Source: Brachionus koreanus
Taxonomy: Eukaryota; Rotifera; Eurotatoria; Ploima; Brachionidae
Assembly (NCBI GenBank): GCA_016987375.1
Contig: PJRA01000453.1
Coordinates: forward strand, 214,718-278,717
Length of the DNA stretch: 64,000 bases
Direction of reading: 5' to 3'
The stretch's first letter is position 1. Every line of letters begins with the position of its first letter. The notes beneath the pieces are model-generated. The model ran no database searches. It saw nothing but the letters and a program-made list of their open reading frames with translations, and was not told where the DNA came from. Below are positions 21,848-64,000 of this stretch, one piece after another. Made by a program: the position numbers and the translations under genes.

Positions 21848-22442
21848 TTATATGTGAAAGTATTCGATTAATTTAGACTGAGCAATTGAGTCTTCGGTTG
21901 ATTCAATTTGGTCATTTGATCTTTTTCCTCTTAAAAAAAAATTATTTTCAAAAATTAGAACTTAAAAAATTTCTAAATTTACATTTGATCAAAATCAAAT
22001 CTTCCATGGCCTGGTAGAGATTCTTGGAACCTAGTTAGGAATAGCAATATAATGTCTAACTTAATTCATTTAGTCTAAAGGAGTAGTTACATTTTTTTTA
22101 GAAGAATTTTAGCTTGTATTTCCATTAATCTAGCATCAACATCGCTTCTTTTATTTCTTTTAAGAAAAAAAAATTTAAATTTAATCCAAATAAAATTATC
22201 TTGTAAATTTACACTCTCGAATGGGTCATCATATCCAAAATTTTCTGGCTATAAAAATATTTCATTTTTTAAAAATTAAAAAAAAAAGTGAATATTTACT
22301 CAAGATCTTTTTCAAACTCGCCCAATTCATCCAAAAACACTTGCTTTCTTATTTCTTTAGAAAGCTTTGGGAAAGCCATTGTATTCACTGCACATGCTGC
22401 CACTATAACAAGCATAAAAATTGTTTGCATCGAAGCTCTCAT
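21848..22442 (-). CDS. Amidated neuropeptide precursor 1
   Basis: Five exons, 22300-22442, 22213-22248, 22091-22156, 21983-22030 and 21848-21929, give 124 aa. All introns are 52-62 nt and phase 2. Residues 1 to about 22 are a signal peptide (hydrophobic core IFMLVIVAACAV). A spacer ends VNKR, a dibasic cleavage site. The predicted mature peptide begins SDVDARLMEIQAKILLKK, continues MFQESLP and ends GHGRFDFDQI followed by GKR, the signal for C-terminal amidation and cleavage: 35 residues, no cysteine. A divergent tail (SNDQIES...) follows. It is the first of three tandem paralogues. A secreted peptide hormone role is inferred from precursor layout. I cannot name the family. Confidence 0.8.
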
Positions 22443-22978
22443 TTTGATTACTTGATTATTTTTGTTTTTAAAATTCGAAAATCAATCCTATTTATATCCA
22501 TTAGAAGTCATTCTGGATTAGACAACTTTAATTTTTACCATCAAAAACAAACTTTTGTTTAAATGCAAATTTTAAAGTTTGGCTAAATTGAATTTTTTAT
22601 TCGATTTGATTTACAATAAAACTTTCTAATAAATGAATAATCATATATTTTTTTGAATAGCAAGTTTGGCACTTATGCCTCAGTCACGAAATATGCGTCA
22701 CATATTCTCGATATTGATAAAAACCATTCAAATAAAAATGCAAATACCTTTGATAAAACATTCATTTTTATTATTCATTTATTTATATGGAATAATTCTG
22801 AAAACATTTTTTATAATCATCCTACTCTTGAAAATTTTTATCAATAAAGCCAAAATTTTTTAAAAATATTCAAATGAAAAGACAAAATTAAAATAAAATA
22901 ACAAATTTTTATTTAATATTAGGGTTCACAAAAAAAACATTATGTTCATTAATGAAAAAAAAAGAAATTCAATAATAT

Positions 22979-23577
22979 TCATTGATTTTGTATATTATTT
23001 ACATTTTCAAAATAAGTTTGATCAGCTGACCGTTTGCCTCTTAAAAAAATTGAAAAATTTAAAAAAAAAAAATTAATTAAAAATTTACAATTCATCAAAA
23101 TCAAATCTTCCATAACCTAGAAAAACATATTTTGGTTAGTTTTCTTTTTTATAAATATTTTTTTTTTTAGAAATTAAATTTACCAACTGGCATTTCAGCT
23201 AATCTATAAAAGAAAAATTTTATTTTAACTTTTCTATTATTCGAAAATTTTAAATATTTACGCTTTAGCTAACAGTATTTTAGCTTGTAATTCTAACAAT
23301 CTCGCTTCAACATCATTTCTTTTGGATCTTGGCAGAAGATAATGAACAATTTTGATTTAAATTTTTTTTTTTATTTTTACTTATGAAGATCAACATTTGA
23401 ATAAGATCGTTTGTTAAGTAAATGTTTTAGGTCTTTATTTGTTTTTCTATTAGGAAATAAAAAAGTTTAATTTTTTAATTTTGTTTGTTTAGATTACATT
23501 TCGATTGACCAAACACTTTGACAAACCATTGCCATCAAAGCAATACTGACTATTAATTTTGTCACAAAAAATCTCAT
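22979..23577 (-). CDS. Amidated neuropeptide precursor 2
   Basis: Six exons, 23498-23577, 23381-23446, 23262-23327, 23184-23203, 23089-23116 and 22979-23039, give 106 aa. The signal peptide is MRFFVTKLIVSIALMAMVCQ onward, cleaved near VWS. Two dibasic sites precede the main peptide: LLNKR and KSKR, so a short extra peptide (SYSNVDLH) could be released. The main peptide is again exactly 35 residues: NDVEARLLELQAKILLAKAL, AEMPV, then GYGRFDFDEL, followed by GKR. A tail (SADQTYF...) ends the precursor. The exon that is single in precursors 1 and 3 is split here by an intron at MPVG|Y (20 + 28 = 48 nt, equal to the 48 nt of precursor 1), so an intron was gained here or lost in the others. Confidence 0.8.
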
Positions 23578-24277
23578 GTTTCTCTAATTTATTTTTATTT
23601 TTAATGAATAATAATTAAAAAAAAAATATTTTTAATTTCCATAGATTTTTAGTCAATTTATACTCAAATTTCTTAATATAAACTGATAAATATTTGAATT
23701 TTATTCCTAAATTAGATTTTTTTTTATAAATTAACGTCATGTTTTTGTGAAAGTATTTCACATCGAATAGGCGAATAATTCACTTGGTAAATAAAAAACA
23801 AGACAAGTCACTTGACTTAACTCAAATTCTCACTCGGCTTTGCTGCAATATTTATTCAATTATTTATTTTAGGAATAATCGAACTTCTTTATTTTTATTC
23901 GCCTCGTTAGAATTCATGATTACATAAACTTTTTTTATTTTTTTTTTCATGACACGAATCTTTTAATTAGTTTTTAATTTTGATAATTTTTTCCTTTTTA
24001 AATATTTATTTTAGTCAATTCAATAGCTTATCTAAATATTGCAAATTTAAATCTGATACAATCACGGTGCTTAATTCATTTCGTTTTTCGAACAAATATT
24101 CATTCATTCTAAGTTTTTCAATTAAGGAAAAAAAATTAAATAAAAATTTTTAAAATTTTTTTATTAATAATCATTCATTAAACACATACTAGAATATATC
24201 TAAGTATTGATTTAATTGAATACGGTTCGAGTGCAAGGAAACGGTGACTAAAACCATTGCAAATAGTTAATAAATAC

Positions 24278-24872
24278 TTAAGAATTTTGATCTGCAAATT
24301 TTAATGGATCTATGGATCGTTTACCACTTAAATAAGACAACATGTGAAAATTGCTCATTTGTAGAAAGAGAAAAAAATTACATTTTTTCAAAATCAAATT
24401 GGCCATGTCCAGCTGGCATTTGTTGATAAGCTACAAAAAAAAATTAATTTTTTTTTCTTAATTTTGACAACAAATATTATAAACCTTTAACAAGGTCTAT
24501 TTTAGCTTGAAGTTCCATCAATCGAGAGTCGATATCACTTCTTTTATTTCTTAAAAATAATTGATTTTTTTAAAATTTTGCAAGACAATTTTTAAAGTCA
24601 TACCTTTGATTGCTAAATATTTGGTTGATTATTTCTTCACTAGGAGAAAATTTTAAAATAATTGGAATAATTATTTAAAAAATTACTTAAGTTTTTTATC
24701 TAATCGGTCTATTTCCAGTAATAAGTCATGCTGTTTGATCATTTTTTGATCATATCTTAAACATTTAGTTTTAATTAAAAACAATTTTTTTTAATTTTGT
24801 TTCTTACTTATCAATGTATTTAGTTGTCACACATGAAACCACTAGACAAAATAATAGTATTTTTTTGAGCAT
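24278..24872 (-). CDS. Amidated neuropeptide precursor 3
   Basis: Six exons, 24808-24872, 24687-24755, 24604-24639, 24485-24549, 24382-24430 and 24278-24326, give 110 aa. The signal peptide begins MLKKILLFCLVVSCVTT. The spacer (KMIKQHDLLLEIDRLDKK) is helical and ends RNKR. The mature peptide is 35 residues: SDIDSRLMELQAKIDLVKAY, QQMPA, then GHGQFDFEKI, followed by GKR; a tail (SIDPLKFADQNS) completes it. The 36-nt exon before the peptide matches the 36-nt second exon of precursor 1, supporting common descent. One internal junction is phase 1 rather than phase 2, but the peptide length is preserved. Conserved residues across the three copies are concentrated in RL-E-QAKI and G-FDF plus the C-terminal aliphatic residue. 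Confidence 0.8.
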
Positions 24873-26660: not shown

Positions 26661-27086
26661 NNNNNNNNNNNNNNNNNNNNNNNNNNNNNNNNNNNNNNNN
26701 NNNNNNNNNNNNNNNNNNNNNNNNNNNNNNNNNNNNNNNNNNNNNNNNNNNNNNNNNNNNNNNNNNNNNNNNNNNNNNNNNNNNNNNNNNNNNNNNNNNN
26801 NNNNNNNNNNNNNNNNNNNNNNNNNNNNNNNNNNNNNNNNNNNNNNNNNNNNNNNNNNNNNNNNNNNNNNNNNNNNNNNNNNNNNNNNNNNNNNNNNNNN
26901 NNNNNNNNNNNNNNNNNNNNNNNNNNNNNNNNNNNNNNNNNNNNNNNNNNNNNNNNNNNNNNNNNNNNNNNNNNNNNNNNNNNNNNNNNNNNNNNNNNNN
27001 NNNNNNNNNNNNNNNNNNNNNNNNNNNNNNNNNNNNNNNNNNNNNNNNNNNNNNNNNNNNNNNNNNNNNNNNNNNNNNNNNNNNNN
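26661..27086. other. Assembly gap (426 N)
   Basis: Run of N. Open frames crossing it are artefacts. Confidence 1.
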
Positions 27087-54000: not shown

Positions 54001-57000
54001 GTCTCACTACTAGCTATTTGCGCATGAGATACGTATTCCCAGAAGGTAATAATTGCGTTTTCTTTATTAATTTTGATTTCCGTCAGAAAAAGACCTAAGT
54101 CACGTAGAACAAACAAGGACTACTTAGTAAAACAAAAAATTTGTCGAACATGCTCAAATTTAGGTGACGTACACTCAAATTCCAATTGTGTTTATTTAGC
54201 ATGGTTTTCCAAACAATCAATTAATCGATCACTTTTTTTCTTTTTTTCTTTTTGCTTAGAAAAGCCGAGCATTTTCAAATAGGAAGTGCTCTTTTTCTTC
54301 GTTTCTCTTTGTCATCCATTTGAACTCTATTGCGTAAGCGAAAAGTCAAAAAACCTCAAACATCCTTTACAAAATAGAAAATTCGTTTCTTTGAAATTCT
54401 ATTTACACTTTTAGCTACTCAAACAATCAAATAACAAACAAATATTATCTAAAATTTTTTTTTCTAAATTAATTAATTAAAATAGTCTATGCTATTTTAA
54501 TTAATTTATTATATTATATTTTAATTAGTTCGAAGACTTCTCTAGCTATAATTGATCATTTATTTATTGAAGAAAATTGTGGTCTAGTTGATTCAGTGAA
54601 GTTTATTGTTTCCCAAATCAAATTAAATATGGAATTAAGCCTGACCTACTACTATAACTTTTTTTATTTATTAAATGATCTGCTAAAGATAGATTTTTAT
54701 ATATAATTGTGTCTGACTTTAATATATCTTTCTCTAAGGTATAAACTCATCTAGTTAAATTAATAATTGAAAAAAAGACTTTTATTTGATTATAATTTTT
54801 TTTCTATATATATCATACTTCAATTTGTCCATGGGACTTAAACTTTAAATAAATAAATAAACTAAGAAATTTTTTATTTTAGGCCTAAGTGAAACATGGG
54901 GTACATTGAACAGCACATTGACTCCAATCGAACGAGAGATCGGCTCGCATTTACTTCAAGTAAGCACATCAATAAATTAAATAATCTACAAATAAATCTA
55001 ATTTTATTTTGTTTGCAGACTTTGGACGGCTTTTTGTTTGTGATCGATAAAGATGGCAAAATAATGTACATATCGGAGACGGCTTCGGTGCATTTGGGTT
55101 TGTCGCAAGTCGAGCTTACGGGCAACAGCGTGTACGAGTATGTCCATCCGGCCGACCATGAGGAGCTCAACCAACTGCTTAATTTGGCGCCGCCACCACA
55201 ATACTTGAATCCGAATCTGAGACAAGACATTGAAATAGAAAAGTCATTTTTCATTCGAATGAAATGTGTGCTGGCGAAGCGAAACGCTGGCTTGACCAAT
55301 GCTGGCTACAAAGTCATACACTGTAGCGGCTATTACAAAGTGCCATTTCAGAGTCTGGACCAATCTTCATACGAATCCGGCTATTCAACGCCCTATCTAG
55401 TCGCCTTCGGACACTCACTGCCTTCTAGTTCTATTACCGAAGTCAAAATGAACAATAACATGTTCATGTTCAGATCTAGTCTTGATTTAAAATTAATATT
55501 TCTTGACTCGAGAGTTTATCAATTGACCGGCTATGAACCACAGGATTTAATTGAAAAAACTCTCTACCAATACATACACATGCAGGATTTGCCAAGTATT
55601 AAACTTGCTCATCAGACATGTAAGTCATTTTTTATTGTTCTGTTAAAGATATAAAAAATTTTATTTAATCAAATCAAACATCAATTTAAATCATTTTTTT
55701 TAGTGTTGTCAAAAGGCCAGGTTACTACCAAGTACTACAGATTCATGACCAAAGATGGTGGATGGATATGGATGCAGAGCTGTGCAACAATAGTTCATAA
55801 TAGTCGTTCGTCTCGTCCACATTGTATAGTAAGCGTAAACTATGTTATTACTGATACAGAGGCGAACAACTTGGTTCTCTCAGTCGAACAGACCATGACC
55901 AGAGATTCAATATTGGCTAGTCGAAAAGGTGATGATGACGGAGAGGAGCGAAGCTCGAAGCGATTCAAAACTAGCTTTGAATATGAAGAGGAGAACGATG
56001 ACGATTATTACAACTCAGATCAAGAGGACCAACAAGCCGAAATGAGCACCTATCCAAATGATTATTACAGCTTTGATCCGAACAATTTCAAAGCATTCTC
56101 GAGCTCTTCCTCTTCGTCTGATACTTCAATAACAAAAAATACCAAAAATCTATCGCTTTCTTCATCTTCGTCGTCGCTCTCGTCCAGTTTCATTGACAAT
56201 TCAAATTCGGCCAAAAAATTGGACTTGTGCAAAGCGGAGCCAATTGTACTAAAGCCCGAGTCAAAGCTAAAAGCTTGTGATATGAACAAAAAAATGGAAA
56301 ATAGCAAAAATTTAAAAGCTTTAAAATTAGATTTGAAACAAAAACGAAAATTGTCATCAAGTGATCTAAAAACCGGTATTAAGCCAAATTCAAAAAATTC
56401 AATTGGCGAAAACAAATCTAAAGATAAGCTTAAGCGCAACAAAAGCGATCTAGCTTCTAATCAAGACACCAATTTTGTATCACCGCCCGATCATTACAAT
56501 TTTCCATCATCAGTCTATCCGGACTCTTACCAGTCCGCATACTTGAACCCAGAATACTATCAGTCAACTGGTCATTTAGCTGGACATTCTCAGTTCAATT
56601 CATACAATTATCAATCAGCTTATGCGGGACACATAAATCCATATACTACCTCAACTAGTTACAACTACTATCAGCAATTTGCAGCCAGTGAGACCAACAA
56701 TTTGAATGCTGATTATCAATCGAATGGGTACAGTTCCACGTCGGCCGTCGCAGCAGCTGCAGTGGCAGCCGCGGCGGCAGCGGCCTTGGCAAATAATAGC
56801 GGAACATACGAGCATAATTATCAATCAAGTTCCGGTTTTAAATCAAACTTGTATCCAAATGATCAAAATTTGTCCTATTATTACAATACAAACGGCTCAG
56901 CTAATTCTAATTTTTACAATATAAACAATCCATCATTGAGCTCTGCATACTACTTATCCGCATCGTCCTCTACATCACCATCGGCTATTTCATCTGTTTC

Positions 57001-57130
57001 ATCCATATCATCAACAACTACGACCATATCACCTTTATCAAATGAATCGACTTCAAATCAAACATTTTTGCCCAATAACAACAATAACTCAGCCAAACAT
57101 CCGCAATATCAACATCAAGTCGTTTGCTAA
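51074..57130 (+). CDS. sim: Single-minded, bHLH-PAS transcription factor
   Basis: Core exons 53871-54045 (part of an exon from 53858), 54883-54959, 55019-55619 and 55704-57130 give 759 aa from the ATG at 53871. A possible upstream coding exon (51074-51129, [18 protein letters not shown]) joins in phase across 2.7 kb. Single-minded dimerises with ARNT/Tango and specifies midline and other neurons. The bHLH starts [20 protein letters not shown] and ends [15 protein letters not shown], followed by PAS-A ([35 protein letters not shown]), PAS-B ([20 protein letters not shown]) and the PAC-like [22 protein letters not shown] after the bHLH separates it from Trachealess/NPAS. The C-terminal 400 residues are disordered: acidic, SKRFK basic stretch, poly-Ser, Tyr/Asn-rich, and a poly-Ala run at about 56746-56793. 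Confidence 0.95.
51130..53857. other. Putative single-minded 5' intron
   Basis: AT-rich, with a TG/TC simple-sequence tract at about 52222-52255. A T-rich acceptor ending AACAG lies at 53857. No other coding sequence seen. Confidence 0.4.
54046..54882. other. single-minded intron after the bHLH exon
   Basis: Intron of 837 nt at the position VFPE|GL. It is much longer than the 59- and 84-nt introns that follow. No coding sequence seen. Confidence 0.8.
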
Positions 57131-60604: not shown

Positions 60605-63600
60605 TCAAATAAATTTTTCCTTTATCAGGTCCTGAAGTCTTTTGACTAATTCACGAGCCAACTCAATTGCCTCATTTATATCATGTTTTTCCGACATCTC
60701 TGAAACAAAAATTAAATTTTAAAATGTTATATTTTTTTGATTTTGTTTTTTATACTACCATTGAAAAATTTGATTATATCCGTGAAGTCCATACGATTTT
60801 CTAGAATTATGTCGCGATATATTTCAATTAGGGCCAGAGCAAAAAATAGAGAAAAGCATTCTGATTTCAAATAGAACCTTGATGACCATATGGTCTCCCA
60901 GACGCCAAAAATGTCTTTGTACAACAGTTCCCTTTTAAAATCAAGCAAAAACCATCTGTACGTAAAATAAAATTGACTCTGATCTCCACGACTATTCAAA
61001 TAATCAAAAAGCTCTTTGTCCAATATTTGAACCAACGAGCGCAAGTTGGAAAAATTTTTATCCATTTGTACATTTGACAAAAAATTAGGAGACATTCTTT
61101 CCATCAACTTTTTAAAGCATTCGTAAACTATGGCCTCTTCAAAAAAAGCATGAAATTAAAATTTTTTTTAATTTTTTTTTCTCTTCATAAAATAATTAAT
61201 TTTAAACTTTTTTTTTACAAATTAAAACAAAAATTTTCACATTTCAATTAAAAATTTAATTGGAATCAAATTACCATTATCAAAAACAACCAAAATTGGA
61301 GCTATTAAATCACACATTCCTTGTATGTAGCCAATTTCAATTGTTTCCCATACATATCTACATATTTTAGAAAATATTTAAGTATTTTTTGTTCTACTAT
61401 GAGAGAAAATTACGTGTAAATAATATTTTTAAGTTTGTTTAAATTTTCCATTGAAGTAAAATACCAAAAATTACGGTCACATCTCAATACATCCTTGTCA
61501 ATGCGATGCATATTGAGAGCAAATGCATCGTAGAGTTCTTTGTTCAAATACTTGTCACCAAAAATGTGATTGCTAGCTGAAGAACTAAGAGACAAAGGAG
61601 AAGCAATGCCAAGCATGTCATTTTTTGTTTTTTCCGTTTCAGCAGTAATGGGAGAGAGAAGGTCAATGGACTTTGTCTTATCGTGATCAATTGTAAAACG
61701 AACACTGCAGTCTGACTCGATTGAGTGTCGAGCTTTTAAAATTGCATTTGAAACCAACATTTGAGCTAGTTCATGGTAAATTTCGTCTCTGGTCAAATTG
61801 TGTTTTGACCTATTAGTCAAACTTTTGGGAGATTCCTCTTCACTTTGATCTAATAAATTCTCACTAGTTGATTGTTTTATAATTTTAGATAAAAAATTTT
61901 TTGCTTTTAACTTATAAAAATAAATTCCCTTATCTTCAAAGTGTCTTAAATTGTACAAATCAGTCCTTGAGTCGTAGCGTTTGCTGGCTTCGGCTGAACC
62001 TATTTCTGCTAACAATGGAGTTTGGTTTTGTTTGGCTCTAAATTTTCCAAAAAAGCGTTTAGCTTCGGTTGTCGACGACTTTCTAGGCGTATTGCTCATA
62101 ATTATCGAATTTTCAGATATGACTGACATTGATGTTACATCAGAACAAAATCCACTGTCATCCGAAGGTGTACACTGTGTTTGGCTGATATTGAGCTTTT
62201 TATCGGCAAATTGCCGGGCGTGTTCTTCATATGGCTTCCATTCGGATATCAAATTTTGATAATTTTTGGCCGCTGACTTATTTTTTGCTTCAATTTGATC
62301 CAAATTCATGTCAAATGTGTATATACCAAGCAAATAGGGCCATATCAATTTACGCAAATCGTTATTTTGAATGCCGTGTGTATACACAATTTTGTAAAAT
62401 AAATCTTGATTAAAACTTTGGCTTTGTTCTATTTTTGACCATAGGCTTTCATCAATTTTAAGTTTTTTGTCCAAATATTGTTGCATTAATTCATCAATTG
62501 GACTTGGATTTAAAGCTTCATTTGTCTCACTTGGTTCCATATTCAAAAGTCTAATCAAATGCTTATTGATTACTTTTGTTTCCCGGTGATAATTAAGCCA
62601 TCCGTTAAAAGCTCTGGACAAAATTTTAAACTCAATATCACTACAGATACTTTTTATTTCAATTTTGTCATTTCGATTTTGATCTTCATTAGCCGGCTTA
62701 TAAACGGTTTTGGATTGTTGGCAAATAGCTATTTTTTTGATTATTAAAGGCATTTTGTTTTGATTTACACAATCCTGCCAGTCATTTGGATCAAATTTGT
62801 ATGCAGGCCTAAAAGCACTTTCTACACTCTTGAGGAAATGAGCAAGACTTGGCGAATCAGCGAACTGAATTGGTGGATACTGAGCGCCATCTTGACCCAC
62901 GAATATTACATCAAACACTCTTGCATTTTGGCTGTGACAGTGCAAAAAAGATACTGTATCTAGTTCAATGTAAATAATTAGCTCGTTTAAATTAGGTATC
63001 TTTGATTTGGACGGCTCGTCGTAGTCTGAATAAGAGCCGTTCAAAATTTCATTAGGGGTCCAGTTTAAAATCAAGCCATTTGTGTTCAAATGAAGTGACA
63101 AGTAGCCAGCATATGATTTTTCTTTCTAAAAATTTCAGAAAATTTAATTTTTTTTGTTAAATTAATTTAGAAAAATTTTAAATAAAATCAAATATTTTTT
63201 CTTTAAAAAAAAAAATTTACTAACTTGATTAACAATGACATGATTTTTGCCATAAACCAACTGAGAGCTTGTATTTTGGTGTAGAGACTCGACAAATTCT
63301 CTAATATTGTCAGCACTGAATTTTTTCGAACTATTTGTTTCATTTAAGCCAAGAGATTGAAGTCGTGATTTGGCACTTAGACATGGTGAACGATTCGGCG
63401 TTACCAAGTGCATTTTGTGCCGCCGAATCAGTTCATCGGCGTCCGGATCTGCGTTTTCAATAGTCTTAAGACGTGTGTACTTGTCAAACGAGCAAGGACC
63501 GGCTATTAATGAAACTAAAATTCCACTCTCCAAAGAACTAGCCATCAGTGCATGGGAATGATAAAATTTAGAACTATTTTTTATTATGAAGTTTACAATA

Positions 63601-63949
63601 TCATTAAAACATTTTCTCATAATGGCTATTTTTACCCACAAAATTTTGATATGAGCCAAATTTGAAAAATATAATGGAACATAATGGCTTATTGTTTCTG
63701 TGCTAATGCTGCCATGCGATTTGCCAGACCAAAAAAATTTTGAAAAAATTCCGTTCTTTTGACTCTCTTTGTTTGCTATAGTAGAATTTAGTTGATTGTT
63801 ATTTAAATTTTTTTCCAATTCAGTAAAAATTTTAACTATTTCCTCGGCTGATTTGCACTCTGAGCTAATTTTTTTGATCAACTCGTAGCTAGACGATTTG
63901 TTTAGATATTCACTCTTTAGTCCATAAAGCATACAATTGTCTATAGCAC
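60605..63949 (-). CDS. SGSM: Small G protein signalling modulator (RUN-TBC Rab-GAP), incomplete at 5' end
   Basis: Visible exons 63225-63949, 61414-63125, 61275-61357, 60759-61136 and 60605-60699 give about 996 residues; the gene continues past the right edge. SGSM proteins combine a RUN domain, a Rab-binding PH-like region and a TBC GAP domain. The first exon holds the end of RUN ([10 protein letters not shown]) and the SGSM-specific VGPC-like [29 protein letters not shown] and [20 protein letters not shown]. The next holds [10 protein letters not shown] and [15 protein letters not shown] motifs: [31 protein letters not shown] (IxxDxxR arginine finger), GYIQGMCDL (YxQ glutamine finger), [16 protein letters not shown] and VWETIW. 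Both catalytic fingers are present, so GAP activity is expected. A long Ser-rich insertion separates the two halves of the TBC domain. Confidence 0.93.
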
Positions 63950-64000
63950 CTAATAGAGAAATAAGATACCTTCATTAGAATAAGATAATCATAAATTTAT

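Follow-up and report, generated by a model that had tools for sequence, protein, structure and literature searches.

Three tandem genes of the rotifer Brachionus koreanus as probable members of the parathyroid hormone-type peptide family

To which hormone family, if any, do three adjacent minus-strand genes within about 3 kb of the Brachionus koreanus genome belong? The genes lie in the 64,000-nucleotide stretch of DNA analysed here as a whole (the window; contig PJRA01000453.1, positions 214,718 to 278,717, assembly GCA_016987375.1), and each is predicted to encode one amidated peptide of 35 residues. An earlier note on this DNA had described them as neuropeptide-precursor genes whose peptide was of no family that it recognised. 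Here, we report that the C termini of the peptides resemble that of insect parathyroid hormone (iPTH), and we consider the three genes to be, most probably, rotifer members of the protostome parathyroid hormone (PTH)-type family, i.e., iPTH in insects, PXXXamide in cuttlefish and oyster, and QSGamide in annelids and others. We put the probability of this assignment, which is drawn from sequence comparison, at about 0.87, a value slightly lowered because one of the three copies only equals the best control peptide.

Three adjacent precursor genes

Exon joining and translation gave three spliced coding sequences, each open from ATG to stop, with GT...AG ends at all 14 introns used. The precursors of copies 1, 2, and 3 are 110, 106, and 124 amino acids long, and the lengths, the range, and the peptides agree with those put forward in the earlier note. 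Copy 1 (24278..24872, minus strand; ortholog P0002 of B. plicatilis) is joined from exons 24872-24808, 24755-24687, 24639-24604, 24549-24485, 24430-24382, and 24326-24278; copy 2 (22979..23577, minus strand; ortholog P0006 of B. plicatilis) from exons 23577-23498, 23446-23381, 23327-23262, 23203-23184, 23116-23089, and 23039-22979; and copy 3 (21848..22442, minus strand; orthologs P0001 of B. plicatilis and P0059 of B. calyciflorus) from exons 22442-22300, 22248-22213, 22156-22091, 22030-21983, and 21929-21848. The trio is real and beyond chance, as the database relatives described below confirm.

In all three copies the precursor runs from a signal-like N terminus through a spacer, Lys-Arg, the 35-residue peptide, and Gly-Lys-Arg into a tail. 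The anatomy, the exact length, the amidation site, and the lack of cysteine that had been proposed earlier are all seen in the joined coding sequences. The signal peptide is called from hydrophobicity only, the maximum Kyte-Doolittle mean over nine residues being 3.2, 2.8, and 3.3 in the three precursors. Mature peptide 1 is SDIDSRLMELQAKIDLVKAYQQMPAGHGQFDFEKI-amide (24326..24539, minus strand; 24539-24485, 24430-24382, 24326), mature peptide 2 is NDVEARLLELQAKILLAKALAEMPVGYGRFDFDEL-amide (23039..23317, minus strand; 23317-23262, 23203-23184, 23116-23089, 23039), and mature peptide 3 is SDVDARLMEIQAKILLKKMFQESLPGHGRFDFDQI-amide (21929..22146, minus strand; 22146-22091, 22030-21983, 21929), each followed by GKR. 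They carry predicted net charges of -2, -3, and -1 and are identical across all three copies at 15 of the 35 positions. The codon of residue 35 is interrupted by the last intron in all three genes, and copy 2 has an extra intron inside the mature peptide, in the Gly26 codon, which the other two copies lack. Mature peptide 3 contains an internal Lys-Lys pair at residues 17-18 (window 22091-22156); if cut there as well, the precursor could release a shorter amidated peptide from its C-terminal part.

Relatives and conservation of the mature peptide

When the three precursors were searched against a protein database, 18 proteins matched at E <= 1 (best 1.7e-45), among them three hypothetical proteins of B. 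plicatilis, i.e., BpHYR1_011966, BpHYR1_011964, and BpHYR1_011976. Since these three share the same longest-contig figure, 47,770 bases, the genes have apparently stayed together in this second species as well. The mature peptides are identical to their B. plicatilis counterparts at 34/35, 35/35, and 35/35 positions (copies 1, 2, and 3), against 37/58, 11/50, and 48/61 in the part upstream and 7/12, 7/16, and 21/23 in the tail. P0006 lacks a signal peptide and was therefore probably mis-predicted in its upstream part. Constraint lies mainly on the mature peptide, as had been argued earlier from the diverged spacers and tails, although the tail of copy 3 is nearly as conserved as its peptide. 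The mature peptide of copy 3 is identical at 18 of 35 residues to P0059 of B. calyciflorus. The tandem duplications that gave rise to the trio are old and predate the split from B. plicatilis. Between copies, the nonsynonymous divergence (dN) is 0.26-0.32 and the synonymous divergence (dS) 0.91 and 1.12 for two pairs, the third being not computable; with 38 codons, dN/dS is unreliable.

Three protein database searches together gave 66 proteins at E <= 3e-5 (P0001-P0066) and one at 0.046 (P0067). Five further matches at E 1.6-7.5 were dropped, namely P0068 and P0071, which look like one bacterial protein, and P0069, P0070, and P0072. Three relatives are named as B. plicatilis and two as B. calyciflorus (P0025 and P0059), and the 61 others are likely of rotifer origin. 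No relative was found in a scan of viral contigs. The one match from a scan of genome contigs (L056) lies on a contig from Acidobacteriaceae with a GC content of 55.6 per cent, and we took it as chance. Within the assembly that contains the window (83.3 Mb, 92 contigs), single-protein searches with only the best candidates scored found no copy beyond the cluster; every match with E < 0.1 falls inside it, and the sole other match, at E 1.35, lies in an open frame of 748 amino acids.

The spacing within the family is narrow. Counting the window copies and the database matches, there are 72 copies of the motif, and an upstream dibasic site could be measured in 60 of them (two of the other 12 are the dropped bacterial-looking proteins). 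The distance from the dibasic site to the conserved GHG is 25 residues in 52 of the 60, 26 in four, 24 in three, and 28 in one. Among the 66 database proteins with the C-terminal motif (a set that includes P0067 and leaves out the two bacterial-looking proteins), nine continue into GKR as expected, 48 stop at residue 35, and nine differ. Met is the last residue in 44 of the 48 that end exactly there, which is what would be seen if a genomic reading frame ran into a GTAA intron start at the residue-35 codon. P0003, P0005, and P0007, with longest contigs of 814, 922, and 1229 bases, are uninterrupted from a signal-like start through GKR, as would be expected of spliced RNA or of an intronless gene; P0058 has an in-frame insertion at the position of the last intron before GKR, and the similar P0007 has none. 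Two peptide units were observed in one open frame of P0026 and parts of two in P0047; some relatives therefore have more than one copy per gene.

A secreted, amidated peptide with an antimicrobial or structural role, i.e., not a receptor ligand, could also show a signal-like N terminus, no cysteine, and tandem copies. The negative net charges, the near-complete identity of the mature peptides with those of B. plicatilis, and the match to iPTH described below make this very unlikely.

C-terminal match to insect parathyroid hormone

In the part of the Tribolium castaneum study used here, the C-terminal 14 residues of iPTH are printed as an antibody immunogen, TMPVGGGRIDPGRI-amide (Xie et al. 2020, PMC7224569); the extra leading Cys in the printed immunogen was taken as an addition for coupling, because 14 residues remain without it. 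Ungapped and anchored at the amide, the last 14 residues of copy 2, EMPVGYGRFDFDEL, are identical to this fragment at 7 of 14 positions, those of copy 1, QMPAGHGQFDFEKI, at 6 of 14, and those of copy 3, ESLPGHGRFDFDQI, at 5 of 14. Per 200,000 shuffled 14-mers, the observed score was reached by one for copy 1, none for copy 2, and 362 for copy 3. Nine rotifer peptides, which are related and not independent, were compared with the fragment in this way, and seven of them gave 0 or 1 shuffles per 200,000; for P0059, the B. calyciflorus relative of copy 3, 928 of 200,000 reached the score. The best rotifer-iPTH score is 34, versus at most 14 for 12 other hormone C termini (11-14 residues). The earlier note had recognised no family and had named a clear match to a described hormone family as what would speak against it; such a match is what we found for copies 1 and 2, together with the precursor layout and the N-terminal SD, as far as one 14-residue iPTH fragment allows.

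In the published description of the iPTH family, the precursor carries KR, an amidation signal with a dibasic site that is strictly conserved, and a C-terminal extension, and the SD that opens the mature peptide is highly conserved (PMC7224569). All three rotifer copies have this layout, with KR, a single mature peptide, GKR, and a tail; the mature peptides of copies 1 and 3 open with SD, as do 21 of the 30 rows of our alignment A7. Tribolium iPTH likewise has a signal peptide, KR, one mature peptide, the amidation and dibasic site, the extension, and the N-terminal SD, and its C terminus shares the pattern MPxGxGR[FI]Dxxx[IL]-amide, to which rotifer copy 2 comes closest. The rotifer peptides differ from it in having Phe for Pro at position -4, His or Tyr within GxG, and three tandem genes; moreover, receptor activation has been shown for Tribolium iPTH (PMC7224569) and is a prediction for the rotifer peptides.

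Outside the insects, the comparison is with published descriptions. In the sections of Thiel et al. 2021 (PMC8557429) seen here, the insect PTH ligand is equated with PXXXamide and QSGamide, and QSGamide and iPTH are treated as orthologous; PXXXamide and QSGamide peptides of molluscs, annelids, nemerteans, brachiopods, and phoronids (PMC8398477, PMC8557429, PMC3890597), which we compared by description only, are viewed as related to or orthologous with iPTH (PMC8398477, PMC8557429). Oyster PXXXamide/QSGamide is described as having several genes and splice forms, like the multi-gene set of the rotifer.

Other hormone families

CRF/DH44, ELH, and PDF/cerebrin peptides are amidated and cysteine-free, and CRF/DH44 and ELH are similar in length to the rotifer peptides. 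It was toward these families that the earlier note had leaned, and the length of the rotifer peptides, their amidated Ile or Leu end, and their predicted N-terminal helix speak for such a membership. Cerebrin was also the best of the 12 control C termini, with up to 5/14 identities. However, no Pfam hormone model matched at E up to 10 (six sequences; 19 members of our alignment A3), and searches of Pfam, NCBIfam, and PDB gave no hormone family, NCBIfam being a bacterial and archaeal library. Profile comparison by hhalign, with 60 column shuffles each, supported none of CRF/DH44, PTH, glucagon/PACAP, calcitonin/DH31, PDF, ELH, NPY, and orexin: over these eight groups the probabilities were 0.09-1.37 per cent, versus 90 per cent for the control of vertebrate CRF to insect DH44. 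ELH had the top score, which was reached by 0/60 shuffles (5/60 for orexin and 8/60 for PDF), but the alignment covers 10 columns only, places the rotifer N terminus on the ELH C terminus, and has a probability of 1.4 per cent. CRF/DH44 was rejected with no match to Pfam CRF (PF00473) and no profile similarity, and PDF/cerebrin likewise with no match to Pfam Pigment_DH. In the genome, one match to the CRF model falls just below the cut-off (21.2 of 22.1 bits) and lies inside an open frame of 4482 amino acids, and five matches to the Pigment_DH model are all below the cut-off, three of which, viewed in one frame, are not precursor-like; please note that both models may miss divergent members. 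With Pfam, hhalign, and the C-terminus comparison giving them no support, membership in CRF/DH44, ELH, or PDF/cerebrin has hardly any probability in our judgement.

Vertebrate PTH is not amidated, unlike the predicted rotifer peptides. It was the best of 14 hormone N termini against the rotifer N terminus, and 806 of 20,000 column shuffles did as well, which is not significant over 14 tests; this resemblance was set aside. Vertebrate PTH and PTHrP share with the protostome ligands, in the account of Thiel et al. (PMC8557429, in part), that they act on the orthologous receptor group.

Candidate receptors and processing enzymes

In a profile search of the genome, the class B seven-helix model matched 33 times and the model of the hormone-binding domain 11 times. 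Six of nine loci were taken for labelling, and the receptor labels are those of the best solved (PDB) match of rough exon joins, i.e., best-hit labels with no tree. Two neighbouring class B1 genes, L063 (contig C3:856463-858961) and L064 (contig C3:866293-867229 and beyond), have a PTH receptor as their best solved relative. For one of the two, PTH1R is best at E 2.1e-45 versus 1.9e-40 for the best non-PTH match, the secretin receptor; for the other, PTH1R is best at 4e-17 versus 3.9e-14 for the GHRH receptor. The class B1 gene L057 (contig C1:4436148-4437018) is closest to the glucagon receptor (E 1.9e-51; PTH1R 1.5e-46). The best solved matches are CGRP and calcitonin receptors for the locus on C70, CRF receptors for that on C28, and the calcitonin and then the secretin receptor for that on C21. 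Highly similar locus pairs were observed on different contigs, C28 with C60 (L062, L061) and C39 with C70 (L058, L059); they stem either from recent duplication or from haplotypes left unmerged during assembly. Cu2_monoox_C domains, of the type found in the amidating enzyme, gave 15 genome matches (best 9.4e-57).

On these comparisons, peptides 1-3 would probably pair with the PTH-type receptors. The pairing of QSGamide with PTH receptors is considered likely but unproven in lophotrochozoans in the passages of Thiel 2021 cited here (PMC8557429).

Weighing the assignment

AlphaFold2 predicts a helix to about mature residue 21-22 and then a break at MPAGHG. With seven sequences (pTM 0.28), the helix already starts in the signal peptide and continues without interruption, an unspecific result, and a short low-confidence second helix follows; with 42 sequences (pTM 0.42), pLDDT drops from about 90 in the helix to about 62 beyond it. 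The helical first half proposed earlier is therefore recovered as a prediction, but its hydrophobic pattern is unlike that of a classic amphipathic helix.

This is one of several points that weigh against membership in the PTH-type family. At 100 degrees, 97, 96, and 65 per cent of shuffles (copies 1, 2, and 3) have a hydrophobic moment over residues 3-22 at least as high as the observed one, and the family average peaks near 150-160 degrees; a classic amphipathic alpha-helix as in class B ligands had been expected and was not found. The iPTH score of copy 3, 14, is the same as that of the best control (cerebrin versus P0004, 14), and P0059 scores 10. Copy 2 starts with ND and not SD, and all three copies have Phe at -4 in place of the Pro from which PXXXamide takes its name. 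The comparison uses 14 residues of one iPTH sequence, and iPTH was chosen after reading the description of the family, so the shuffle counts are uncorrected for that choice. Finally, the glucagon-receptor-like gene on C1 would be an alternative partner of the rotifer peptides.

The shuffle counts of copies 1 and 2 are small enough to survive the choice of family. Copy 3 by itself would not make the iPTH case; for it and P0059, copies 1 and 2 provide the link to the family. As for the residue at -4, Pro, the original mark of PXXXamide, is said to be only mildly conserved in the iPTH family in the part of the paper available (PMC7224569), and we did not treat it as defining.

The same points could be read as a hormone family specific to rotifers, with no outside relatives, whose iPTH-like C terminus is a convergence of a short amidated motif. 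The likeness to iPTH is seen at the C terminus, the first half, SD[IV][DE]xRLxELQAKI, being outside that comparison; the database searches gave only relatives from Brachionus or without an assigned species; and the match of copy 3 alone is no better than the best control. Such an origin is nevertheless unlikely in view of the seven ungapped identities of copy 2, the rarity with which shuffles reach the scores of copies 1 and 2, the precursor layout and the N-terminal SD in common with iPTH as described, and the PTH-type receptors in the genome; besides, the protein search needs shared exact words of five residues, which a divergent iPTH would escape. Membership in the PTH-type family remains our preferred reading, and its basis is the secretory-type precursors, the 35-residue peptides between dibasic sites, the amidation Gly, the strong conservation of the peptide, the likeness to the iPTH C terminus, and the presence in this genome of PTH-receptor-type class B1 genes and of amidating-enzyme domains.

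Proposed mode of action and significance

The precursor would be cut after KR and at GKR and the C terminus amidated, and the secreted peptide would act as a hormone or neuromodulator on one or more PTH-type receptors. If binding follows the pattern of class B1 receptors, the receptor core would take up the conserved N-terminal half, and GHGxFDFDxI-amide would bind the extracellular domain. A more speculative idea, which we hold to be possible but doubtful, is that PTH-type signalling in rotifers has expanded and diversified to three conserved peptides, each with its own role and its own preference among the duplicated PTH-type receptors and perhaps the glucagon-receptor-like one, and that a vestige of the vertebrate PTH N terminus survives in their strongly conserved N-terminal half, bridging two ligands so far held to be unrelated in sequence.

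The iPTH family is known; its rotifer members, the triplication, and the wide set of relatives appear undescribed in the literature that was searched. Among the titles and abstract openings listed there, none reported this family in rotifers, and of the four relevant papers on the family none dealt with rotifers; S1 Table of Xie et al., outside that search, could list a rotifer sequence. A 2021 paper sees the next frontier of neuropeptide research on spiralians in Gnathifera, to which rotifers belong (PMC8557429). The gene trio would represent amidated 35-residue hormones of a described invertebrate family in an animal group with little neuropeptide survey. It would place a PTH-type ligand in rotifers, with dozens of relatives for a profile and with both the ligands and their candidate receptors available from a single laboratory species, and the activation of PTH-type receptors by lophotrochozoan QSGamide-type peptides becomes directly testable. 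The Tribolium iPTH system affects cuticle formation and egg numbers, according to the portion of the study cited (PMC7224569), and whether it has a part in rotifer reproduction would be natural to ask.

Other features of the window

A block of 426 N bases lies at window 26661-27086, about 1.8 kb beyond copy 1. A gene for a PAS-domain protein is seen at 54893-57130 on the plus strand (PAS, PAS_3, and PAS_11 matches). Close to the end of the window, at 60727-63971 on the minus strand, RabGAP-TBC, Rab-binding PH, and RUN domains follow in successive open frames and may belong to a single RabGAP-type gene.

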